From assembly GCA_028277825.1 (NCBI GenBank), contig JANQFN010000184.1:1-33847 (forward strand): a stretch of DNA of 33,847 nt. The letters are read 5' to 3'. Shown here piece by piece: positions 11,843 through 33,149 of the stretch. Made by a program: the position numbers and the translations under genes. Position 1 is the first letter of the stretch, and each line of letters opens with the position of its first letter. The notes beneath the pieces were generated by a model. It had not been told where the DNA came from and ran no database searches. It saw only the letters and a list, made by a program, of their open reading frames with translations. The stretch comes from Desulfarculaceae bacterium. Lineage in GTDB: Bacteria; Desulfobacterota; Desulfarculia; Desulfarculales; Desulfarculaceae.

Positions 11843-12367
11843 TGTGGGGCTTGTCTGTAGCGAACTCATCCTTGCCATGACCGGCCCTCAAGTGCTTTCC
11901 GAAACCTACATCAACGAGGCCATTGTAGCCTCTCCAGCCATCAGAGTAGATGACGCTGTCCCCCAAGCTTACCCTTCCCCGAATGACTGCTTACAGAATG
12001 GCCTTGGAGCAATTGGGCACTATTTTGGTGTACACGCTGCCATTGCGTTTGAAGATGCCGAAGACGATGGTTTTTCCGTAAGCGCTTCTTCCCCTTTTGC
12101 CCTTTACTCGCCTGGCGCCGAACTAAAGGGGGATCTGGAGTTGCAGAACTGGGCCAGACGCATCCGGATGGCACGCAGATAACGGTTCCGTGTTGCGGCT
12201 CAGACCCGCCAGGGAGGCTATCTGAGAGGCATTGAGATCAACCGAAAACAGGCGCAGCAACTCACGGAATTTACGTTCTGAAATGTGCGCACCTTTTCTA
12301 TACTTATTTTTTACTGTCATGACCGTATGTTAGCATGCCTCAAATAGGCCTAAACGTGTCATGACCC
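11842..12367 (-). mobile_element. Degenerate IS1595-family element, copy 1 (transposase relic, truncated at its C-terminus)
   Basis: Minus strand NKYRKGAHISERKFRELLRLFSVDLNASQIASLAGLSRNT, then frameshifted sequence, then DSVIYSDGWRGYNGLVDVGFGKHLRAGHGKDEFATDKPHINGL; outer end ...CCTAAACGTGTCATGACCC. Confidence 0.75.
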
Positions 12368-12699
12368 AATTGTAAGTGTCTATTCCCTGACATGAAAAGG
12401 GAGCCAACCACGAAGGTTAACTCCCTGATATTATTGGCAGTCCCAACCCGCTGCCAATCCCAAGTTAGAAAACTTAAGTTACAGATTATATTGAATTATT
12501 AGCCTTGTTACTCAACTTGTTGCCAAATGATTTGCCACTCTTTAGCCAGGACCTGATTGTTCTTAGGTTCTAACCGAAACAGTTTTGAGCAACAGAGAAG
12601 GGTTTAGCCAATTTCAAATTCATTATGCTCGACTCGTAAGGCCACCACCGCCGCATTGCTTTTTTGCCACCAGAGCCTAAAGGTGCCAAGGCTCGATTC

Positions 12700-13049: not shown

Positions 13050-13082
13050 TTGACAAACTTATTGTATACGTATAAGTATACA
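13050..13082 (+). promoter_or_regulatory. Promoter with palindromic operator, copy 1
   Basis: TTGACA-7 bp-TGTATAC-N6-GTATACA. Confidence 0.55.
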
Positions 13083-13153
13083 TATAAATATAATTGATTT
13101 GGCCTATCAAATGTTTCCGTTTGGTATTGTGCCGATCTTGAGCGAGAGTTATC

Positions 13154-14412: not shown

Positions 14413-15651
14413 ATGGCCCTTGATATCATTATCCCCAAGTTGGGGCTCACCATGGAGGAGGCTGTCCTAATCACCTGGAATTTTGCGCCGGGCGAAATGG
14501 TGGCCTTGGATGACGCAGTTTTAGTGATTGAGACAGACAAGGTCTCTTATGACTTACCTTCCCCGGGTGAGGGCCTTTTGCACCCCGTTGTCGCTGTAGG
14601 CACAACTGTGAAAGTTAGCCAGGTGGTGGGATATCTCGCCCACGACAAGGCCGAACTCGAAAAACTACAAAACAAAACACCAACGGCTGAAGTCGGTGTA
14701 ATCAAGTCAGTTACTCCAAAAGCAGATTCTACGGCGTCCTCCGAAAAGGAAATGAAACCATCCCACACACACAGAGATAGTCGTAGAATCAAAGCTTCTC
14801 CCCTAGCCAAAGCTATGGCAGCTAAACACGGTCTGAATCTGTCGCGCATCCAAGGTAGCGGACCAGATGGCCGCATTGTTAGAGCCGACATCGACCAGGC
14901 CTTGGAGCATGGTGTGACTGCTGCTCCGGTAGAGTTAGCGCACCAAGACCCTCTAATTCTTACTCCTGCTGCAGAGGTTCCTGTCGCGGGTATACGTAAA
15001 ATTATTGCCGGTAACATGCATCTCAGCCTTAGCACTCAGGCTCAATTAACTCTGCATACCGAGGCATCAGCGACGAATTTGGTAAATTTTCGCGGCAAAT
15101 TGAACCGACGCTACGAAGTTGAAGGCCCCAAAGTTTCCTACAATGCAATCATTTTGAAGGCAGTGGCCCACGCTCTGTGTTTACATCCCAACTTGAATTC
15201 CAGTCTGGATGGAGAGGTTATTAAAACTTGGAACCAAATAAACATCGGGTTGGCTATGGACTCGGGCGATGGATTATTGGTTCCCAAGATCCGAAAACCT
15301 CATTTGAAAGGCATCAAGGACATCAGTCGTGAAATTGATGAAATGACCGAGCGTGCCCGTGCTAAAAAACTTCTACCGGATGACTTGGCAAGTGGAACAT
15401 TTACCATAACTAATTTGGGCCCCTGGGATATCGATCACTTCACACCCATAGTAAATCATCCTGAGAGCGCTATTTTGGGCGTTGGGCGCATAGAGGAAAA
15501 GATGGTTGTGAAAAACGGACAAGGTTTTGCCGAATCCCGATTAAGTTTAAGCTTGACCATTGACCACCGAATTATCGACGGGGCTCCAGGAGCTGCTTTC
15601 TTGAAAACAATCAAGGATTTCATCGAAGATCCTTTGTTTTTGCTGGAGTGA
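14413..15651 (+). CDS. Dihydrolipoyl acyltransferase (E2) of a 2-oxoacid/acetoin dehydrogenase complex
   Basis: Lipoyl domain ETDKVSYDLPSP, subunit-binding domain KASPLAKAMAAKHGLNLSRIQGSGPDGRIVRADI, catalytic DHRIIDGAPGAAFL. Confidence 0.93.
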   Translation: MALDIIIPKLGLTMEEAVLITWNFAPGEMVALDDAVLVIETDKVSYDLPSPGEGLLHPVVAVGTTVKVSQVVGYLAHDKAELEKLQNKTPTAEVGVIKSVTPKADSTASSEKEMKPSHTHRDSRRIKASPLAKAMAAKHGLNLSRIQGSGPDGRIVRADIDQALEHGVTAAPVELAHQDPLILTPAAEVPVAGIRKIIAGNMHLSLSTQAQLTLHTEASATNLVNFRGKLNRRYEVEGPKVSYNAIILKAVAHALCLHPNLNSSLDGEVIKTWNQINIGLAMDSGDGLLVPKIRKPHLKGIKDISREIDEMTERARAKKLLPDDLASGTFTITNLGPWDIDHFTPIVNHPESAILGVGRIEEKMVVKNGQGFAESRLSLSLTIDHRIIDGAPGAAFLKTIKDFIEDPLFLLE

Positions 15652-15654
15652 AAG

Positions 15655-17016
15655 ATGAAAAGGTTAGACTTAGTTGTAATCGGCGGGGGACCTGGTGGAG
15701 TGGCGGCAGCCATTAGGGGCACCCAATTAGGCGCTTCAGTGGCCATTATTGAAAAAAGTTTGTGGGGAGGGTTGTGTCTGAATCAGGCTTGCATTCCTAC
15801 CAAATTTATCTCTTCAGCTGCAGACAGATTGAAATACTTGGAGGCTACATTTGCTTATGGGGAATATAAGGCTCCCAGCTTAGAACCAAGTGAGTTATGG
15901 AAACAAAAAGACGAGCTCTCCAATTATTTTTCAATGGGCACAAAAGGGCTATTGACCTCCAAAGGCATAAAGCTGATAGAAGGTCTAGGTAGGTTGGATG
16001 GACCTGGCAGGGTGACCGTAGGCGACGTACAGATTGAGACTAAATCAGTCATTATTTCATCTGGGAACATTTGGGCTGCACCACCGGTACCGGGTGGTGA
16101 CTTGGACGGCATAATAAATTCCAGCCAGTTTTTAAATGATGATCAGCTACCTCAAACGGTCCTTCTATTGGGTGGAGGTCCGTGGCAGTTGGAATTGGCA
16201 CAGTTTCTGGTCACCGCAGGCAAAGAAGCAACTGTGTTGGAAGAAGGCCCTAATATTTTACCCACTTGGGAAGAGGAGATTGCTCAACGCTTGCGTGCCA
16301 TCATCAATAGAGAGCCGTTAACTATTTTCAATCATGGCAAAATACAAGGTTTTAAGAAAAAAGATGGCAAAATCAGAGCAGATGTGACCGTGCGCGACAA
16401 AGAGACCTCCTTGACAGTAGACCGTGTTATCTACTTCGGACGGACACCTGGTTTGGAAAACCTTGGTCTGAGTTCTGTTGGCCTAACGAATCTACATGTT
16501 AACGAACGCCAAGCCACTGGTGCCCCAGGCGTCTTTGCGGTGGGCGATGTTACCGGCCAGGAGGGACTATCCCACTTGTCATCTGCACAAGGTATTTGCG
16601 CTGCTGAAAATGCCCTTGGGGGCGAAACGAGCTTGAACCTTGGAGCGGTACCTAAAGTTGCCTATACAAATCCCCAGGTTGCATCGGTGGGACTGTCAGA
16701 GAGTCAAGCTGAAGAATTGGGATTCGAAGTGATTACTGGAGAGGCTTCCTTGGGCACAAGTCCCATGGCCATGATAACCGGCCAATCCAACGGTGTAGTC
16801 AAGGTAGTGGCGGAAGAGGAATATGGAGAGGTGTTGGGAGTGCATATACTAGCACCGATGGCCACCGAAATTATTGGTGCGGGAGTACTGGCTTTGCAAA
16901 TGGAAGCCACACTAAATGACCTCTGTATGGCGTTAATTCCTCACCCAACAATCGGGGAGTCTTTAACCGAAGCAGCGAGAGACGCACTGGACAGGGCAAT
17001 CTATCAAGCTGGATAA
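15655..17016 (+). CDS. lpdA: Dihydrolipoyl dehydrogenase (E3)
   Basis: FAD motif VIGGGPGG, redox CLNQAC, VFAVGDV, HPTIGESLTEAA. Confidence 0.9.
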   Translation: MKRLDLVVIGGGPGGVAAAIRGTQLGASVAIIEKSLWGGLCLNQACIPTKFISSAADRLKYLEATFAYGEYKAPSLEPSELWKQKDELSNYFSMGTKGLLTSKGIKLIEGLGRLDGPGRVTVGDVQIETKSVIISSGNIWAAPPVPGGDLDGIINSSQFLNDDQLPQTVLLLGGGPWQLELAQFLVTAGKEATVLEEGPNILPTWEEEIAQRLRAIINREPLTIFNHGKIQGFKKKDGKIRADVTVRDKETSLTVDRVIYFGRTPGLENLGLSSVGLTNLHVNERQATGAPGVFAVGDVTGQEGLSHLSSAQGICAAENALGGETSLNLGAVPKVAYTNPQVASVGLSESQAEELGFEVITGEASLGTSPMAMITGQSNGVVKVVAEEEYGEVLGVHILAPMATEIIGAGVLALQMEATLNDLCMALIPHPTIGESLTEAARDALDRAIYQAG

Positions 17017-17029
17017 ACAAGTTAGATTT

Positions 17030-17370
17030 AACTCAAGTCAACTGTTGGCGCTTCAGCCAGCAAAAGAATTCAGGAGGTTGTTTTAGCCGCCAAGGGAAAT
17101 GTCGGAATTAATGAGTTTTTTACAAGGATTGTCACCGAGTAATTAAAGTGTGCTCGCTCTCGGTGACCAACGGGATTATTTATAAACCGGCAATGTACTG
17201 GCTGCATTTATTGAAACTAATGAAAATGGAAAAGGATATTATGCATGCGACATGTGCGTGATGGTTTACTATAAACTAGCCCTGGAATTGTATCTTGGCC
17301 AAGAATGTTGTTTTGAACATCTTCATGGTGTTGGGCATGGCTACAGCGCTACCAGAGGAAACGTTTAACT
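17030..17370 (+). pseudogene. Decayed ORF fragments between E3 and lipBA, family not identified
   Basis: In-frame fragments VGASASKRIQEVVLAAKGNVGINEFFTRIVTE* and TGNVLAAFIETNENGKGYYACDMCVMVYYKLALELYLGQECCFEHLHGVGHGYSATRGNV*. Confidence 0.35.
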
Positions 17371-17403
17371 AGATTAATATTTAACAAAGGAGTTGAAAGC
17401 AAT

Positions 17404-19017
17404 TTGTGTCATTCCCTGCAAGATAGAGTATTGAACACTAAGCAATTTCCAGCTCTCAATATTGAAGATTGGGGACTACTGTACTACGGAGCGGCTCTAG
17501 AGCGTCAGAAAAATTTGGTGAATAGGATATTGGCCGGTGAGGTTGGTGACCATCTTGTTTTGGTAGAGCATCCCGCCGTAGTGACTGTTGGTGCAGGTAA
17601 TGGGAAAGGCGACCTGCGTGTCCCCCGTATAGCCTTGTACAAAATGGGTGTCGGCTTGTATCAATCCGATCGGGGAGGCAAAACAACTTATCATGGGCCC
17701 GGCCAACTGGTGGTTTATCCTATCATTAAACTTCCCCCCAACATTGATAGCTCTCTATATATTCGTAAACTGCTTACTGTGACAATCAAAGTTATTAGAA
17801 AATACGGGCTGGAATCCAATCTCCGTAAAGGTAGGCCGGGCCTGTGGTTGGATAGCCAGAAGATTGCCAGTATTGGCGTTGCTGTTAGACGTGGAGTGGC
17901 CTATCACGGTTTGGCTCTCAATGTTAACAATGATTTGACCCCATTTGACTGGATCGTTCCGTGTGGTAGCACAGGAGAGAAGTTCATCTCCATGCAGGAG
18001 ATGTTGGGACGGCCAGTGGATATGACCAGTTTAAAAGAAGATTTGGTTCACGAGTTTCGCCTTGCATTCGGCTATATTCAGCCAAAACCATTGAAACGAC
18101 CGTCATGGCTTAAGCTACCTTCACTTGACATCAACAAAATGTCAGCAACCCAAAAAATTCTCGATAAGTTTTCTTTGAATACGGTTTGTCACAATGCAGC
18201 TTGCCCAAACCTTGGGGAATGCTTTTCGCGGGGAACTGCAACCTTCATGATTTTGGGGGAACATTGCACACGTAATTGTCATTTCTGTGCAGTCAAAAAG
18301 GGCAAGCCCAAAAGGTGCGATATTGAAGAACCCCTGCGGGTGGCTCGGGCAGTTCGCGAGTTGGGTTTGCAGTATGTAGTAGTCACCTCAGTGGCACGGG
18401 ATGATTTGCCCGACGGCGGGGCTAACCACTTCGTAAACACTATAAAAGCGATCCGGGAATTTTGTCCAAGAGTACCAGTTGAAGTCTTAGTTCCAGATTT
18501 TATGGGAATCAAGGAGGCTTTACACATAGTTTGTGCCACAGAGCCGGACGTGTTTAACCACAATGTGGAGACAGTACCTCGCTTGTATGGCTTAGTTAGG
18601 CCTCAGGCTGATTATGCTCGCTCCCTCAAAGTGCTTGCCTATGCTGCCAATCACGGTCTGCAAGTTAAATCAGGCTTGATGTTGGGCCTAGGAGAAACCA
18701 ATTATGAGATCGAAAAAACACTTGTCGACTTGAGGTTTTCAGGCTGTATGTATTTAACCTTGGGTCAATATCTTGCTCCTTCTTCAGAACACGTTTCTAT
18801 GAACCAGTATGTTCCACCAAAAGATTTTGACAAGTGGGCAAACAAGGCTAAAAGCATGGGTTTCAGGGATGTTGCCGCAGGACCTTTGGTTAGGAGTTCA
18901 TACAAAGCCGAAGCCATGCACTTGTCGAATGATCGCACAAACACTGCCTTAGCATTGGATTCTTCACTCCAATCCGTAAAGGAGCCAAGCGATAGTGAGT
19001 TTGCTTCCTTAACGTAG
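17404..19017 (+). CDS. Fused octanoyltransferase (LipB) - lipoyl synthase (LipA)
   Basis: N-terminal LipB: DRGGKTTYHGPGQLVVYP, KIASIGVAVRRGVAYHGLALNVN, PCG; C-terminal LipA: CHNAACPNLGEC, radical SAM CTRNCHFC, C-terminal RSSY; TTG start with AAGGAG upstream. Confidence 0.92.
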   Translation: MCHSLQDRVLNTKQFPALNIEDWGLLYYGAALERQKNLVNRILAGEVGDHLVLVEHPAVVTVGAGNGKGDLRVPRIALYKMGVGLYQSDRGGKTTYHGPGQLVVYPIIKLPPNIDSSLYIRKLLTVTIKVIRKYGLESNLRKGRPGLWLDSQKIASIGVAVRRGVAYHGLALNVNNDLTPFDWIVPCGSTGEKFISMQEMLGRPVDMTSLKEDLVHEFRLAFGYIQPKPLKRPSWLKLPSLDINKMSATQKILDKFSLNTVCHNAACPNLGECFSRGTATFMILGEHCTRNCHFCAVKKGKPKRCDIEEPLRVARAVRELGLQYVVVTSVARDDLPDGGANHFVNTIKAIREFCPRVPVEVLVPDFMGIKEALHIVCATEPDVFNHNVETVPRLYGLVRPQADYARSLKVLAYAANHGLQVKSGLMLGLGETNYEIEKTLVDLRFSGCMYLTLGQYLAPSSEHVSMNQYVPPKDFDKWANKAKSMGFRDVAAGPLVRSSYKAEAMHLSNDRTNTALALDSSLQSVKEPSDSEFASLT

Positions 19018-19050
19018 AGAGCTGTAACAAAGCGATTGGACGGTAAAAGC

Positions 19051-19476
19051 ATGAATATTGGTGGATTCGAGTTCCCAGAGAACCTCTATTATGACTCTGA
19101 TCACTGGTGGATTAGGCCAGAAGGTGATCAGCTTGTACTTGGCATGGATGACTTTGCACAAAAATTGGCGGGGGAAATTGTTTTCGTGCAACTTCCGACA
19201 GCAGGTAAAAAATTGAAGAAAGGTAAGAAGCTATCCAAAGTTGAATCGGGTAAATGGCTTGGGAAAATAATCTGCCCTGTTGATGGCAAATTAATTGATG
19301 TAAACCAAAACCTAGAAGCTATCCCTACCCTGATAAACCAGGACTGCTATGGAGACGGCTGGATGTTCCGCATCAAAGCAAATGAAATCTCCCAACTAGA
19401 TGAACTTATCCATGGAGCACAGGCAATAGAGGTCTGGGCAAGGGAAGAAATAGCTAAGCATGTGCAGTCCAGTTAA
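19051..19476 (+). CDS. GcvH-like lipoyl carrier protein
   Basis: FPENLYYDSDHWWIRPEGDQLVLGMDDFAQKLAGEIVFVQLPTAGKKL..KVESGKWLGKIICPVDGKL..GDGWMFRIK; Lys aligns with the GcvH lipoyl lysine. Confidence 0.85.
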   Translation: MNIGGFEFPENLYYDSDHWWIRPEGDQLVLGMDDFAQKLAGEIVFVQLPTAGKKLKKGKKLSKVESGKWLGKIICPVDGKLIDVNQNLEAIPTLINQDCYGDGWMFRIKANEISQLDELIHGAQAIEVWAREEIAKHVQSS

Positions 19477-19485
19477 GTTCATATC

Positions 19486-20157
19486 ATGAATGATGGAGAT
19501 TTAATAAAGGTCCTCGTCGCCTGCGGTAATGGTATTCTGTGCAAAGGAATTGCAAAAATACTGACCGAAGAACCTAAAATAACTGTCATTGGCGAACTGA
19601 ATAGTGGTCAGGAGGTCATCAATAAAATAGACAGTATGTTGCCGGATATTGTGGTAATTGAATTTTATTTGCCCGAACTAAACGGGGTTGATGTCGCCCA
19701 ACGAATAAAAAAAAAGTATCAAAATATTAAGTTTATCATGTTTTCCACATCAGATTTAAAAGATAAGTATATTTTTGAGATGTTGAAAACTGGAGTCGAG
19801 GCCATTCTGGATAAAAACAGCACTTATCAAGAATTGATAATAGCAATAAATGCTGTACACTTTAGTGAATCTTATCTCAGCCCTTCTATATCGTCAAAAT
19901 TAATAAAAAGCATGTTTAAGGGCTCAGCATGTTCTGGCTATGGAGATAGGTTCGGGCTAGAACGGCTTACTCAACGCGAGAGAGAAGTAATACAATTGAT
20001 TGCCGAAGGGTTTTCTTGTCGGCAAATTTCAGATAAACTATGTATTAGTCAAAAAACAGTGAGGAATCATAAAGCCAATCTAATGAAAAAATTGAATTTG
20101 CGCAATGTGGCTGAAATTACAAAATACGCTATACAAAATAACGTTGTGCTAATGTAA
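19486..20157 (+). CDS. NarL/LuxR-family response regulator with atypical receiver domain
   Basis: Receiver-like N-terminus; LuxR HTH LTQREREVIQLIAEGFSCRQISDKLCISQKTVRNHKANLMKKL. Confidence 0.88.
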   Translation: MNDGDLIKVLVACGNGILCKGIAKILTEEPKITVIGELNSGQEVINKIDSMLPDIVVIEFYLPELNGVDVAQRIKKKYQNIKFIMFSTSDLKDKYIFEMLKTGVEAILDKNSTYQELIIAINAVHFSESYLSPSISSKLIKSMFKGSACSGYGDRFGLERLTQREREVIQLIAEGFSCRQISDKLCISQKTVRNHKANLMKKLNLRNVAEITKYAIQNNVVLM

Positions 20158-22163: not shown

Positions 22164-22755
22164 GGGGCACTACAACTTTAAAGGCTGATTTCTGAAGATT
22201 TTCAGCAACAGCCTGTATATGTTTTAATTTCTGCAGTTGAACCTAAATTCGCACTCTCTAAAATACAAGATAAATGCATAAGGATGTATCCCTTGGTATT
22301 TGACAAGGTGGATTTTGGCAAATGTATCCGCGTCAGCCATCGGAGCAGATGACGCTGTCCAACTTACCCTTCCCCGAACGCCCCTTTGCAGAGTGGCTTT
22401 GGCGCAATTAGGCACTATTTCAGTGTACACGCTGCCGTGGCGTTTGAATATACCGAGGACGATGGTTTTTCCGTAAACTCCTCTTCCCCTCTTGCTTTTT
22501 ACACGTCTGGTTCCAAAGAAAGATAGTAGACCTGGAGTTGCAGAACTCAGCCAGACGCATTTCTATAGCACGAAGATAGCGACTAAGCCCAGAGCGCTAG
22601 GGAGACGATCTGGGAGGCATTGAGGTCAACCGAAAACAGGCGCAGCAACTCACTGAATTTGCGCTCTGAAATGTGCATACCTTTTACATACTTAGCTTCG
22701 ACTGTTACGACCGTATGTTAGGATACATCAAATATGACTAAACGTATCATGCCCC
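22164..22755 (-). mobile_element. Degenerate IS1595-family element, copy 2, internally deleted
   Basis: Minus strand retains VYTEIVPNCAKATLQ, DSVICSDG*RGY, then LVKYQGIHPYAFILYFRECEFRFNCRN*NIYRLLLKIFRNQPLKL*; ends GGGGCATGATACG / GGGGCACTACAAC. Confidence 0.7.
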
Positions 22756-22929
22756 ATGATTATAGAATTGATCTTATAATACTACGTGTTGCATGATGCC
22801 AACAACAATAATAAAAAGTCGAGCTATTTAGCTGGGTTAACTTATTTTGATGAATGCGTGCTTGCTGAAGTGACCAGGAAGGCATAAGACCATTGCGGTA
22901 TCAAATAAATCGCTGGAATAAAAAAACTC

Positions 22930-22962
22930 TTGACAAATAGATTGTATACGTTTAAGTATACA
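22930..22962 (+). promoter_or_regulatory. Promoter with palindromic operator, copy 2, upstream of the GntR gene
   Basis: TTGACA-7 bp-TGTATAC-N6-GTATACA, same geometry as copy 1. Confidence 0.6.
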
Positions 22963-23142
22963 TATAGAAATACATAAACGCCGCACTGCAGCGACACAAG
23001 GGCAGAGTGATAAAAGTTGCGATTTGCTCGGATGAACTTGAAAGCTCAAATTAATTCAACAGATAATTGCTTAATTACCTGCATAACTGCACATGTGTTC
23101 GTTATAGTTGAATAGATTGAATATCCCAATAACAGGTACAGA

Positions 23143-23931
23143 ATGGTTGTTGGGCTATATACGGTATCCCCAGTAGGAGAAAACGTGGAAGCACTCAGTT
23201 TTTTAGAGCCAGTATCCACCAAAGGTAATTTAGCCAATAAGGCTTATGTAATAATCAAGGATGCCATAGTTAACGGATGGATCACATCTGGCCATTGGCT
23301 TATGGAAGACGAGGTCGCAAAACAACTTTGTATCAGCCGCACTCCAGTGCGAGAAGCATTTAGGCGTCTTCAAGGTGATGGACTGCTTGAATTTATACCT
23401 CGAAAGGGAGCTCGAGTCCCTGACCTTAGTGATAGTGAACTGGAAGAACTTTTAGACGCTCGCGAACAAATCGAAATTGCTTTTTTGGGACGCTCAATTG
23501 AAAATATTGATCTTAATAAATTGAATAAATATGCTAGTGAATTTAAAGATCTTGAGAAAAAAATGATTGGTGCTAAGGATGTTTATGAAAATATATCTGA
23601 CCTACAATCTCAGTATATAATGCTCGATAGAAATTTTCATGATTTCATAATTGAATCCTCGGGAAATAGATATTGGCTAGAAATATACCATAGTTTGCGC
23701 AATATAATCCAGTTTTCATCCTTTAAGGCAGGACTTATATCATCTCAATTTGAAAAAGCAATTGAAGAGCATAATGCTCTTATAGATGCAATTATGGCTA
23801 AAGATACTTTAACTGCTAAAAAAATAATGAGTGCCCATATCCAAAATTTCAAAAAACGTCTTCTTTTTGCAATTAAGAGAAATAAACGACCCCTACCAAC
23901 AGCTAGCTCAAACAAAAGAAGTCACGGGTAA
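23143..23931 (+). CDS. GntR-family transcriptional regulator with FCD-like C-terminal domain
   Basis: wHTH LANKAYVIIKDAIVNGWITSGHWLMEDEVAKQLCISRTPVREAFRRLQGDGLLEFIPRKGARV; helical C-terminal ligand domain with NFHDFIIESSGN. Confidence 0.9.
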   Translation: MVVGLYTVSPVGENVEALSFLEPVSTKGNLANKAYVIIKDAIVNGWITSGHWLMEDEVAKQLCISRTPVREAFRRLQGDGLLEFIPRKGARVPDLSDSELEELLDAREQIEIAFLGRSIENIDLNKLNKYASEFKDLEKKMIGAKDVYENISDLQSQYIMLDRNFHDFIIESSGNRYWLEIYHSLRNIIQFSSFKAGLISSQFEKAIEEHNALIDAIMAKDTLTAKKIMSAHIQNFKKRLLFAIKRNKRPLPTASSNKRSHG

Positions 23932-26622: not shown

Positions 26623-27933
26623 ATGGATATAGCCACAACCTCGGCTTTAATACTCCTTACTATGATTGGGCTGCTTGCCATTGGTGTACCAATGGCATTT
26701 GTATCAGGTGCCATAGCGGTCTTCCTCGCATTCATTAATTTCGGGCCTAACGCACTATTTATTTTGGGTAGCCGTACTGCGGATTTTTTAAATTCATTCG
26801 CTCTAGTTGCTGTACCTATGTTTGTGCTGATGGCGTCGATATTAGAGCGTTCAGGCATAGCGAAAGACCTTTATCGAGCATTCCATATTAGCGCTGGAAA
26901 TTTACGCGGCGGCGTGGCAATTGTGACTCTATTAGTTGCCATTATGCTGGGGGCTACCACAGGTATCATTGGGGGCGAAGTGGTCCTGCTAGGTCTTATT
27001 GCCTTACCTCAAATGATTAAATTAGGTTATAACCGAAAATTGGCAATAGGTACCATTACAGCAGGCGGCTCACTGGGGACGATGATACCTCCAAGTATTA
27101 TACTGATATTCTATGGTATCACTGCAGAGGTATCGATATCTGACCTGTTCTTAGCGACAATATTTCCTGCATTTTTATTAGCTTTATTGTATATTGGATA
27201 TATTTTAATTAGATGTCATATAAACCCTTCCTTAGGTCCAGTAGCACATGAATCAGATAATAAGCTAAGTTGGAAGGATAAATTAAGTCTGTTTAAAGGC
27301 GTAATCATACCTATCATAGTCGCTGTAGTTGTGTTGGGTTCTATCTACGGTGGCTTTGCATCAATCACAGAATCTGCTGCAATCGGCGTTGCCGGCACCT
27401 TAATTGCGGCATGGGTGCGTCGAGAGTTAACCTGGAAAATGCTACGTGGCGCACTTATTCAATCAATGAAAACTTGTGGAATGGTATTTTGGCTTGTTTT
27501 TGGTACAAATTCACTGATAGGCATTTATAATTTGCTGGGAGGTATCACTTTTGCGAAACAAATTTTGATAGGTGTTTCCAGTGAACCAATAGTGATCATT
27601 TCAGTAATGGTTGCGGTTTTTTTATTGCTAGGAATGTTCATCGATTGGATTGGAATACTATTCCTTACAATGCCCATATTTCAACCGACTCTCCAGGCAA
27701 TGGGATATGATCCAATATGGTTTGGTATTGTCTTTAACTTATCGATGCAAATAGCGTATCTTACTCCTCCTTTCGGACCTGCATGCTTTTACCTCAAGGG
27801 GGTCGCACCTCAAGAAATTACATTGCAGGAGATATTGTCAGCACAGTGGCCTTTTATAGCATTACAAGTACTGGCATTGTCAATAGTCATACTGTTTCCA
27901 TCTTTATCCCTTTGGCTACCAAACTTATATTGA
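26623..27933 (+). CDS. TRAP transporter large permease (DctM family)
   Basis: Polytopic 436 aa; GGSLGTMIPPSIILIFYGI, MLGATTGIIGGEVVLLG, TPPFGPACFYLKGV. Confidence 0.93.
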   Translation: MDIATTSALILLTMIGLLAIGVPMAFVSGAIAVFLAFINFGPNALFILGSRTADFLNSFALVAVPMFVLMASILERSGIAKDLYRAFHISAGNLRGGVAIVTLLVAIMLGATTGIIGGEVVLLGLIALPQMIKLGYNRKLAIGTITAGGSLGTMIPPSIILIFYGITAEVSISDLFLATIFPAFLLALLYIGYILIRCHINPSLGPVAHESDNKLSWKDKLSLFKGVIIPIIVAVVVLGSIYGGFASITESAAIGVAGTLIAAWVRRELTWKMLRGALIQSMKTCGMVFWLVFGTNSLIGIYNLLGGITFAKQILIGVSSEPIVIISVMVAVFLLLGMFIDWIGILFLTMPIFQPTLQAMGYDPIWFGIVFNLSMQIAYLTPPFGPACFYLKGVAPQEITLQEILSAQWPFIALQVLALSIVILFPSLSLWLPNLY

Positions 27934-27944
27934 GGATATTATTG

Positions 27945-29978
27945 ATGAAATCAAAAGATATTGTAAGCAAAAAAACAAACAACGATAAAACAATTGCCCT
28001 GACGAATGAAAATCTGTTGCACATGCTTTCCACAATGATAATCATACGACAATTCGAAACAAGTGCTGCAGAACTATTTAGTTCTGGCGAAATTAGAGGA
28101 ACGGCTCACTCATGTGTAGGGCAAGAGGCAATCGCTGTAGCTGCATGTGGTGCTCTTGCAAAGGATGATTTTATTCTTACTCACCATCGGGGACATGGCC
28201 AGACTATTGCCAAGGGTGCTGATATAAAGTTGATGATGGCCGAGTTGATGGGTAAGGAGAACGGGTATTGTCGTGGCCTCGGAGGCTCCATGCATATTGC
28301 TGATTTTGATTGCAAGGTCTTAGGCGCCAATGGAATTGTCGGAGCAAGTATGGGGTTAGGAGTTGGCGCAGCTCTTGCAGAAAAGACCAAAAGCTCTAAT
28401 GCGGTTGGCATAGCTTTTTTTGGAGACGGCGCTGCTGGTGAAGGTATTTTTCATGAAGCTTTAAATTTGGCGTCAATCTGGAACTTACCTATCGTATTTT
28501 TTTGTGAGAACAACCAGTACGGTATATCTACGCGAATGGAAGATGTAATTGCGGGAAAAGGAATTGCGCGGAGAGCTGAAGCTTATAACCTACCCGGTCA
28601 ACAGATTGATGGAAACGATGTATTCCCCATATATGAAACCGTAGCTGATGCAGTTAAGCGAGCCAGAGATGGTTGTGGACCATCGCTAATTGAAGCGATG
28701 ACCTATCGCTGGGGTGATCATTCAATGCGGGCAAATTTGCCACGATATAGAACTGAAGATGAAGTTAACGAATGGCGTGACCGTGATCCCATTATGCGCC
28801 TTTTGAAACATTTGATTGATATAGGAAAATGTGACCGGGCTATGTACAAAAAAATGTGCGACCAAGCCATCGAAAAGATAGGTGACGCAATTAATTGGTC
28901 TAGGAAACAGAAAATATTGAAGTATGACACTGCGATTAATATAGTGTATGCTCCCCCAAAAGTGGAAGGCTTTGAGCCATCCCCAGGCAACCGCAACATT
29001 AGTTATGCGGAGGCGATCACTGAGGGAATTATGCAGGAAATGGAACGAGATACTTCTGTGATTCTCATCGGTGAAGACGTAGGCAAAATTGGTGGGATAT
29101 TCGGCCTTACTAGAGGCTTGCAAGAAAAGTTCGGCTCTGAACGGGTACGTGACACACCTATCGCTGAGAATGTTCTTTCCAACTGTGGCGTAGGCGCTGC
29201 AATGATGGGGCTGCGACCTATTGTTGAAGTACAAATATTAGATTTTATAACACTTATGATGGATGGCATAATCAATCAAGCAGCAAAAGCACGTTTCATG
29301 ATGGGTGGTAAAACCAAAATCCCAATTGTCTTTAGAGGGCCGCAAGGAGCTGGAATTAGCTTAGCGGCTCAGCACAGTCAATCTCTTGAATCATTGTTCA
29401 CACATATCCCTGGGCTCGAAGTATATATTCCCTCCAACGCCTATGATGCAAAAGGATTAATTGTCGCTGCCATTCGATCTGACAACCCTGTCATTTTTAT
29501 AGAAAATAAATTATTATACATGATTTCTGAAAGCAGGCCTGTACCAGAAGAGTGTTATGCGATCCAGCCTGGAAAAGCACGAATTGTTCGTGAAGGCACT
29601 GACTGTACCGTTATTGCACTGTTATCAATGGTCGATCAAGCTATGCAAGCCGCTACTAAGCTGGAAAAGAAAGGCATTTCCATAGAAGTCATTGACCCGC
29701 GTACTGTGAAACCCTTGGATATGGACCAGATTATTAAAAGCGTAAAAAAAACCAACCGTGCGGTGATCGTACATGAATCGGCTAGGTTTTGCGGGATTGG
29801 CAGTGAAATCGCCTCAAATATTATGGAACAGGCTTTCGATTGGCTGGATGCTCCGGTGGCCAGAGTCACAGCACCCAATATGCCTGTACCCTATAGTGCC
29901 AAGTTAGAGCAAAAATATATACCAAATGCTGATGACATAACTAAATCTGTAAAAGAAGTCTATTACTATGCTCGCTAA
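27945..29978 (+). CDS. Fused thiamine-PP-dependent 2-oxoacid dehydrogenase E1-alpha/E1-beta
   Basis: Alpha: GDGAAGEGIFHEALNLASIWNLPIVFFCENNQY ThDP motif; beta: ISYAEAITEGIMQEMERDTSVILIGEDVG, DTPIAENV, VKPLDMDQI; one continuous frame; start at MKSKDIV. Confidence 0.92.
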   Translation: MKSKDIVSKKTNNDKTIALTNENLLHMLSTMIIIRQFETSAAELFSSGEIRGTAHSCVGQEAIAVAACGALAKDDFILTHHRGHGQTIAKGADIKLMMAELMGKENGYCRGLGGSMHIADFDCKVLGANGIVGASMGLGVGAALAEKTKSSNAVGIAFFGDGAAGEGIFHEALNLASIWNLPIVFFCENNQYGISTRMEDVIAGKGIARRAEAYNLPGQQIDGNDVFPIYETVADAVKRARDGCGPSLIEAMTYRWGDHSMRANLPRYRTEDEVNEWRDRDPIMRLLKHLIDIGKCDRAMYKKMCDQAIEKIGDAINWSRKQKILKYDTAINIVYAPPKVEGFEPSPGNRNISYAEAITEGIMQEMERDTSVILIGEDVGKIGGIFGLTRGLQEKFGSERVRDTPIAENVLSNCGVGAAMMGLRPIVEVQILDFITLMMDGIINQAAKARFMMGGKTKIPIVFRGPQGAGISLAAQHSQSLESLFTHIPGLEVYIPSNAYDAKGLIVAAIRSDNPVIFIENKLLYMISESRPVPEECYAIQPGKARIVREGTDCTVIALLSMVDQAMQAATKLEKKGISIEVIDPRTVKPLDMDQIIKSVKKTNRAVIVHESARFCGIGSEIASNIMEQAFDWLDAPVARVTAPNMPVPYSAKLEQKYIPNADDITKSVKEVYYYAR

Positions 29979-31175: not shown

Positions 31176-32162
31176 ATGGAAAAAGACAAAAAAAAGATGT
31201 TAGGGCTTTATCGCCTTATGGTGACTATTCGACAGTTTGAGATTATGGCAGGAGACGATTTCGCTGCCGGAGTAATACCTGGGTTTATTCACCTTTCTAT
31301 TGGACAAGAGGCAAGTAGTGTTGGGGTTTGCTCATGCCTTAGGAAAGATGACTACGTTACCACAACACATCGTGGACATGGCCATATGATTGCTAAAGGT
31401 GCTGATCTTAATAAAATGGCTGCCGAATTGTATGGGAAAAAAACAGGATATTGTAAAGGAAAAGGAGGGTCTATGCATATTGCTGATTTTTCAATAGGTA
31501 TTCTGGGTGCCAATGGAATCGTTGCTGGCGGGTTGCCGATAGTAACAGGTGCTGGTTTTTCTATTATGATGCGTAAAACGGATCAGGTTGCAGTTTGTTT
31601 TTTTGGTGACGGGGCTAGCAACCGAGGAACTGTACATGAATCCATGAATATGGCCTCTATCTGGAAACTGCCAATCATATTCGTGGTGGAGAATAACCAG
31701 TATGCATCCACTACTCCCAGCACTTACTCGTATTCGGTTAAGGACTTATCTGTCCGGGCAGCCGGTTATGAGATGCCTGGTATAACCGTAGATGGGAATG
31801 ACGTGTTGGCTGTGCGCAAAGCAGCAAAAGTAGCAATAGAGCGGGCTCGATCCGGATATGGTCCAACATTTATTGAGAACAAAACTTATCGCATTAGGGG
31901 CCACTTCGAAGGGGATCCACAGAGATATCGCGATCAAGAAGACGTATATGCTCAATCTACCAAGAATGATCCAATTGAGCGCTTTGGCAGTACCCTCAGC
32001 AAAAATAAAGTACTCAATGACCAAATCATTAAGCAAATTTGGAATGATGTATCCTTGGAGCTGGACAAGGCCAAGGAGTTTGCAGAACAAAGCCCCTTCC
32101 CCGAACCAGAAGAAGCATTGGAAGATCTTTACGTAAATGTTAAGACAACTGGCTGGGAGTGA
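31176..32162 (+). CDS. Thiamine-PP-dependent dehydrogenase E1-alpha (AcoA/PdhA-like)
   Basis: THRGHGHMIAKGAD, GDGASNRGTVHESMNMASIWKLPIIFVVENNQYA, YRIRGHFEGDPQRYR. Confidence 0.93.
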   Translation: MEKDKKKMLGLYRLMVTIRQFEIMAGDDFAAGVIPGFIHLSIGQEASSVGVCSCLRKDDYVTTTHRGHGHMIAKGADLNKMAAELYGKKTGYCKGKGGSMHIADFSIGILGANGIVAGGLPIVTGAGFSIMMRKTDQVAVCFFGDGASNRGTVHESMNMASIWKLPIIFVVENNQYASTTPSTYSYSVKDLSVRAAGYEMPGITVDGNDVLAVRKAAKVAIERARSGYGPTFIENKTYRIRGHFEGDPQRYRDQEDVYAQSTKNDPIERFGSTLSKNKVLNDQIIKQIWNDVSLELDKAKEFAEQSPFPEPEEALEDLYVNVKTTGWE

Positions 32163-32168
32163 AATCGG

Positions 32169-33149
32169 ATGGCCGAGCGTATCATGAGTGCTTCAGCAGC
32201 TTTGGCTGAAGCCTTGATTGAGGAAATGCATCGTGATCAAAGCGTATTTATTGTGGGTGAGGATTTAACAGCACATTCAGGAATATTTGGACAGTTCAAG
32301 GGTATTCCCGAAAAATACCCTGACCGGATTATAGATACACCTATCAGCGAGGCGGCCATAATGGGAATTGGAATTGGCGCATCGATCACTGGTATGCGAC
32401 CTATTGTTGATATACATTTTTCTGATTTTATAACATGCTGCATGGATGAGTTGTGCAATCAGGGGGCAAAGATACGCTATATGTTCGGAGGCCAAGTGAA
32501 ATTGCCTTTTGTACTTTTTTGCCCTGACGGTGCTGGCCTTAGAGGTGCTGCTCAACATTCCCAATCTTTAGAGGCTTGGATGATGCATATACCTGGGCTT
32601 AAAGTTGTAGTTCCCAGCGAGGCCGCTGACGTGAAGGGACTTATGAAGGCTAGCATCCGTGACGACGATCCGGTGGTTTTTTTTCAACATAAAAAATTAT
32701 TCGCCAAGCAGGGTGTGGTTCCCGAAAGCGATTACCAAATTCCGCTCGGGCAGGCCGCCGTCAAAAGACTAGGAAATGATGTGAGCTTGCTGTGTTATGG
32801 AGCCGGCTATTATTTGTGTCAAGAAGCCGCGGTGGAATTGTATAGCAGGGACATAGATGTGGAAATTGTGGATATTCGAACTCTGAAGCCATTGGATATA
32901 AAAACGGTAGCAAAATCTATACAGAAAACCCACCGGGCGGTTATTGTACACGAAGCTTGTCTGACCGGAGGGTTTGGCGCTGAACTGGCTGCTCTTATAC
33001 AGGATGAAATGTTTGATGATCTAGATTCACCGATTAAAAGGGTCGCAGCGAAAGACGTACCTATACCGTTCTCTCCCCCTATGGAGGACTTTGTTTTACC
33101 TAGTGTTAGCGATGTAATATCAGCAGTACATTCAGTAGTTTATCGATAG
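32169..33149 (+). CDS. 2-oxoacid/acetoin dehydrogenase E1-beta (AcoB/PdhB-like)
   Basis: SASAALAEALIEEMHRDQSVFIVGEDLTAHSGIFG, DTPISEAAIMGIGIGAS, LKPLDIKTVAKSIQKTHRAVIVHEA. Confidence 0.93.
   Translation: MAERIMSASAALAEALIEEMHRDQSVFIVGEDLTAHSGIFGQFKGIPEKYPDRIIDTPISEAAIMGIGIGASITGMRPIVDIHFSDFITCCMDELCNQGAKIRYMFGGQVKLPFVLFCPDGAGLRGAAQHSQSLEAWMMHIPGLKVVVPSEAADVKGLMKASIRDDDPVVFFQHKKLFAKQGVVPESDYQIPLGQAAVKRLGNDVSLLCYGAGYYLCQEAAVELYSRDIDVEIVDIRTLKPLDIKTVAKSIQKTHRAVIVHEACLTGGFGAELAALIQDEMFDDLDSPIKRVAAKDVPIPFSPPMEDFVLPSVSDVISAVHSVVYR

Follow-up and report, generated by a model that had tools for sequence, protein, structure and literature searches.

A LipB-LipA fusion protein as a putative dedicated lipoylation enzyme of dehydrogenase complexes in Desulfobacterota and Chloroflexota

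Introduction

Lipoylation is generally supplied by two free enzymes, both individually long known: LipB attaches an octanoyl group to a lysine within a lipoyl domain, after which LipA adds sulfur to the protein-bound chain.

Several described systems bring an attachment enzyme and a lipoyl synthase together. In the family NF053790 (bifunctional lipoate--protein ligase/lipoyl synthase), LplA is fused to LipA. The acetoin dehydrogenase cluster of Pelobacter carbinolicus holds genes for a lipoyl synthase (AcoS) and for LipB (PMC3543383), and lipS1-sLpl(AB)-lipT-lipS2 gene sets have been described in sulfur oxidisers (PMC10332631).

Here, we analysed a stretch of 33,847 nucleotides from a Desulfarculaceae bacterium (contig JANQFN010000184.1, hereafter the window), in which LipB and LipA are encoded as one protein. 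The order of attachment enzyme and lipoyl synthase is identical to that of the LplA-LipA fusion, but the attachment half is LipB, an octanoyl-ACP transferase, and no lipoate ligase. Indeed, when the window protein was evaluated as a member of NF053790, it was rejected: only its LipA half matched the model, at 390.1 bits against a cut-off of 800. As in P. carbinolicus, a lipoyl synthase and an octanoyltransferase are encoded within an acetoin dehydrogenase-type cluster, although there they are two genes (Pcar_0346 and Pcar_0350) and not one protein. The sets of the sulfur oxidisers are similar in that the lipoate-making genes travel with the lipoyl protein served, while their ligase and two radical-SAM proteins are different enzymes. 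A literature search among open-licence papers found no published description of a LipB-LipA fusion.

The fusion gene and its two domains

The first-pass annotation had proposed that LipB and LipA share a single frame of 537 residues with the key residues of both domains intact, and both claims held. The frame 17404-19017 (forward strand) translates without interruption to a lone terminal stop, with neither stop nor frameshift between the domains, and both halves score above curated cut-offs. The earliest possible start is the TTG at 17404, which AAAGGAG precedes by about 11 bases. The features of the locus are listed in Table 1.

The LipB half passed the cut-offs of NCBIfam PRK14345 (NF010925; 167.4 bits, cut-off 155) and TIGR00214 (129.4 bits, cut-off 83.55), and the LipA half passed those of TIGR00510 (358.8 bits, cut-off 310.25) and PRK12928 (390.3 bits, cut-off 210). 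The Pfam domains found were LplA-B_cat and Radical_SAM, and the closest solved structures were the lipoyl synthases 4u0o and 5exi and the lipoyltransferases 2qhs and 1w66.

All the catalytic and cluster residues that were checked are present. As in known LipB proteins, the LipB half has the RGG-T-HGPGQ motif (RGGKTTYHGPGQ, residues 90-101) and the catalytic Lys153 (KIA-G motif) and Cys187 (PCG motif), the last two kept across the fusions; unlike them, it shares one chain with LipA. In the LipA half, the auxiliary-cluster cysteines Cys262/267/273 (CX4CX5C), the radical-SAM cysteines Cys288/292/295 (CX3CX2C), and RSSY (residues 497-500) are all there, as in the TIGR00510 family, but the LipB domain takes the place of the short N-terminal extension. 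The checked motifs are retained in the other fusions, with the single departure of RGGKATSHMPGQ in the HGPGQ stretch.

In the window protein, the conserved end of LipB and the P-x-W-L start of LipA are just some nine residues apart. An AlphaFold model, built from two sequences only (the window protein and one relative), had a mean pLDDT of 43.5 and a pTM of 0.41, values so low that the model was set aside.

Table 1. Features of the window related to the LipB-LipA fusion locus
Feature	Coordinates	Strand	Details and basis
Promoter/operator-like element, copy 1	13050..13086	+	upstream of the E2-E3-LipBA-GcvH set
E2 acyltransferase, 2-oxoacid/acetoin dehydrogenase-type	14413..15651	+	one lipoyl domain, likely target; domain/profile matches
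E3 dihydrolipoyl dehydrogenase-like flavoprotein	15655..17016	+	domain/profile matches
LipB-LipA fusion gene	17404..19017	+	537 aa, TTG start; frame, profile matches, homologous fusions
Octanoyltransferase (LipB) domain	17449..18075	+	residues ~16-224; profiles, solved relatives, Lys153 and Cys187 present
Lipoyl synthase (LipA) domain	18085..18930	+	residues ~228-509; auxiliary and radical-SAM cysteines, RSSY present
GcvH-like lipoyl carrier	19036..19476	+	ESGK-motif Lys conserved, possible second target; domain/profile matches
LuxR-type response regulator	19486..20157	+	after the gene set; domain match
Promoter/operator-like element, copy 2	22930..22966	+	upstream of the GntR-BKACE-TRAP-E1 set
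E1-alpha and E1-beta genes	31176..33149	+	likely partners of E2/E3

Distribution, selection and origin of the fusion

A domain search for other proteins carrying both LipB and LipA, which the first-pass annotation had suggested, was then carried through on whole genomes: it returned 15 more fusions, all from Desulfobacterota or Chloroflexota, for a total of at least 16 including that of the window. In the host's phylum (Desulfobacterota), they were found in G009, G010, G022, G053 (where the copy is interrupted by a contig end), G061, G135, G334, and G417, and in five genomes of the genus g86 (G134, G220, G244, G382, and G418); the Chloroflexota genomes are G440 and G455. The frequency was 11/396 in an even draw of genomes of the host's phylum and 2/349 in Chloroflexota. 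Phyla beyond these two were covered by one short-pattern scan of genome contigs, which detects close relatives only. The fusion was not found in the eight other genomes of the host's genus that were searched, and tblastn against plasmids gave, among the matches listed, no fusion but just separate or adjacent lipB and lipA.

The dN/dS values, computed on five pairs of relatives, ranged from 0.11 to 0.18 in LipB and in LipA alike; the window copy is outside this set, having no relative close enough, and one further pair (L021/L025) was discarded for a value absurd for proteins this similar, probably due to an extraction or alignment error. Both halves are thus under purifying selection in the relatives. 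Given the uninterrupted frame and the 15 homologues joined in the same way, a chance origin of the fused frame is excluded.

The genomes differ in what they encode besides the fusion. No other LipA or LipB match (E <= 0.001) was found in G220, which has a completeness rating of 100%, or in the two Chloroflexota genomes G440 and G455. In G010, a single contig, the fusion is the sole LipA match and one separate LipB is also present. A LipS2 homologue occurs in G010, G220, and G455, and none in G440; LipS1/LipS2-type synthases could replace LipA. Besides the fusion, the genome of the window encodes two stand-alone LipA proteins and one LipB, so the fusion is accessory in this host and dispensable for lipoate in general.

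In the phylogenetic analysis, the LipB halves formed a single clade (84/93). The LipA halves required two changes on the free tree, and a single clade was not rejected (p-AU 0.555). The simplest reading of these trees would be a single fusion event, after which the gene moved between lineages.

Gene neighbourhood

Among the 14 loci with sufficient flanking sequence, 13 have E2 and/or E3 genes of the acetoin/2-oxoacid dehydrogenase type adjoining the fusion, the sole exception being G061; in the Chloroflexota genome G455, E3 lies immediately upstream. In the window, E3 and the fusion are separated by 387 bases without a clear gene (17017-17403), an interval that is short or absent in relatives. 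A further observation concerns E1: E1-alpha and E1-beta also occur in a single 731-aa frame at 27783-29978, near the separate pair listed in Table 1.

In genus g86, the fusion is part of a longer gene set: Lin0512, E1, AcoX, SDR, E2, E3, and LipB-LipA, then a multihaem cytochrome with a membrane part, GcvH, a CCG/4Fe-4S protein, LplA-DUF116, a LipT-like protein (a geranylgeranyl-reductase-like flavoprotein), LipS1, and LipS2. From the cytochrome to LipS2, the set is complete at the five g86 loci (L041-L045) and partial at three others (L034, L038, and L039), and parts of the longer set are found in G010, G061, and G135. Its LipS1 and LipS2 score under the family cut-offs (211 bits against 230 and 213 bits against 270, respectively), and by this measure they are relatives and not confirmed members of these families. 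A set like sLpl(AB)-LipT-LipS1-LipS2 adjoins the fusion in g86 and G061, and the gene order in g86 recalls that of the sulfur oxidisers (PMC10332631). In the window's genome, an LplA-LipT-LipS1-LipS2-type set lies apart from the fusion, on another contig (C111).

Proposed function and alternative explanations

Taken as a whole, the fusion looks more like a dedicated cofactor-fitting enzyme than a one-genome curiosity, and we consider it probable that LipB-LipA is a bifunctional lipoylation enzyme dedicated to a complex. The LipB half would take octanoyl from acyl carrier protein and attach it to the lipoyl-domain lysine of the adjoining E2, and possibly to that of the GcvH-like protein. Once the octanoyl chain is protein-bound, its C6 and C8 would receive sulfur from the LipA half, a radical-SAM enzyme predicted to have two 4Fe-4S clusters. 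Joined, the two enzymes would allow one horizontally movable gene to activate an acetoin/2-oxoacid-dehydrogenase-type complex wherever the operon lands.

We infer the enzymatic activity, the choice of target, and any kinetic gain from the tether; E2 (and perhaps GcvH) as the target is the best reading of the gene neighbourhood. The first-pass annotation had also suggested a substrate hand-off between the two sites. A putative hand-off is plausible, perhaps helped by the tether. Since the target protein carries the octanoyl intermediate on its lipoyl domain, it would be the whole acceptor domain that passes between the sites.

The alternative that survives best is that the two halves are active but independent: the fusion would merely ensure equal co-expression of an operon pair, with no hand-off, and bifunctionality would be unaffected. 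We regard this as quite possible, if somewhat short of even chances. Coherently with it, relatives often have separate lipB and lipA genes adjacent in the same order as in the fusion, which makes the loss of one stop codon a simple route to it. In the Chloroflexota genome G578 (L031, 1177-2718, reverse strand), an unfused pair beside E3 abuts in frame as TAG|ATG, so that one lost stop codon could suffice. In addition, the join ranges from about 9 to 25 residues across the fusions, without conserved sequence. On the other hand, the fused state has been kept across two phyla in proteins diverged to about 50% identity, which suggests a benefit of the join.

A second alternative is that the main target is the GcvH-like neighbour rather than E2, with lipoyl-GcvH acting as a relay or delivering electrons to Hdr-like proteins. 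A lipoyl relay from GcvH to E2 exists in Bacillus and in mitochondria. The GcvH-like gene directly follows the fusion in the window, where the lipoyl lysine of its product is conserved; in G010, G061, G135, and the five g86 genomes, such a gene is located close to the fusion. However, it was not found at the examined fusion loci of G009, G022, and G417, several loci carry the LplA-LipT-LipS1-LipS2 set, which could serve GcvH instead, and no LipL-like amidotransferase was identified. We hold this explanation to be rather unlikely.

An even less probable elaboration would make the fusion the cofactor loader of a hitherto undescribed lipoyl electron chain, composed of acetoin-type E1/E2/E3, a GcvH-like carrier, a CCG/4Fe-4S (HdrD-like) protein, and a membrane multihaem cytochrome. 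In such a chain, the fusion would load E2 and LplA-LipT-LipS1-LipS2 would load GcvH; its putative components are encoded together in g86, G010, and G135.

If LipB-LipA is the dedicated enzyme that we propose, lipoylation by one chain, which judging by homology has no other LipA or LipB beside it in some genomes, would offer a simple system for the coupling of octanoylation and sulfur insertion. Its compactness could also make the fusion useful where lipoyl enzymes of foreign origin are to be activated. More generally, the conserved neighbourhood points to dehydrogenase complexes with their own cofactor machinery in sulfate reducers and their relatives.

The low-GC segment and its shared element

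The GC content of the contig is about 0.57 over the left 12 kb and about 0.43 beyond, with an abrupt change near 12.3 kb; the other contigs of the genome have about 0.62. The left part encodes a FeoB with 80% identity to its counterpart in another genome of the genus, and thus belongs to the host's lineage. The step at 12.3 kb is either an island border or a contig join.

This step, in an assembly of 640 contigs, could suggest that the fusion is a decayed or chimaeric gene produced by misassembly, but this explanation is so improbable that we reject it for the LipB-LipA join: the gene lies 5 kb inside the low-GC part, its frame is open with all motifs kept, and 15 homologues are joined in the same way, some of them in genomes assembled as a single contig (G010, G417, and G134).

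A repeat of about 440 bases (11918-12368 and 22317-22756, 82-85% identity) flanks the 10.4-kb segment containing the fusion. When a stop and a few residues are omitted, its first copy reads like a damaged transposase of the IS1595 type. The whole picture is consistent with a catabolic segment that is co-regulated and was gained by horizontal transfer.

Finally, the 37-bp element listed in Table 1, with the pattern TTGACAAA...ATTGTATACGT.TAAGTATACATATA, occurs exactly twice with none expected by chance, a figure that, the pattern being derived from its two copies, means that the repeat is non-random and no more. The GntR/FCD regulator encoded at 23143 is a candidate binder of this element.
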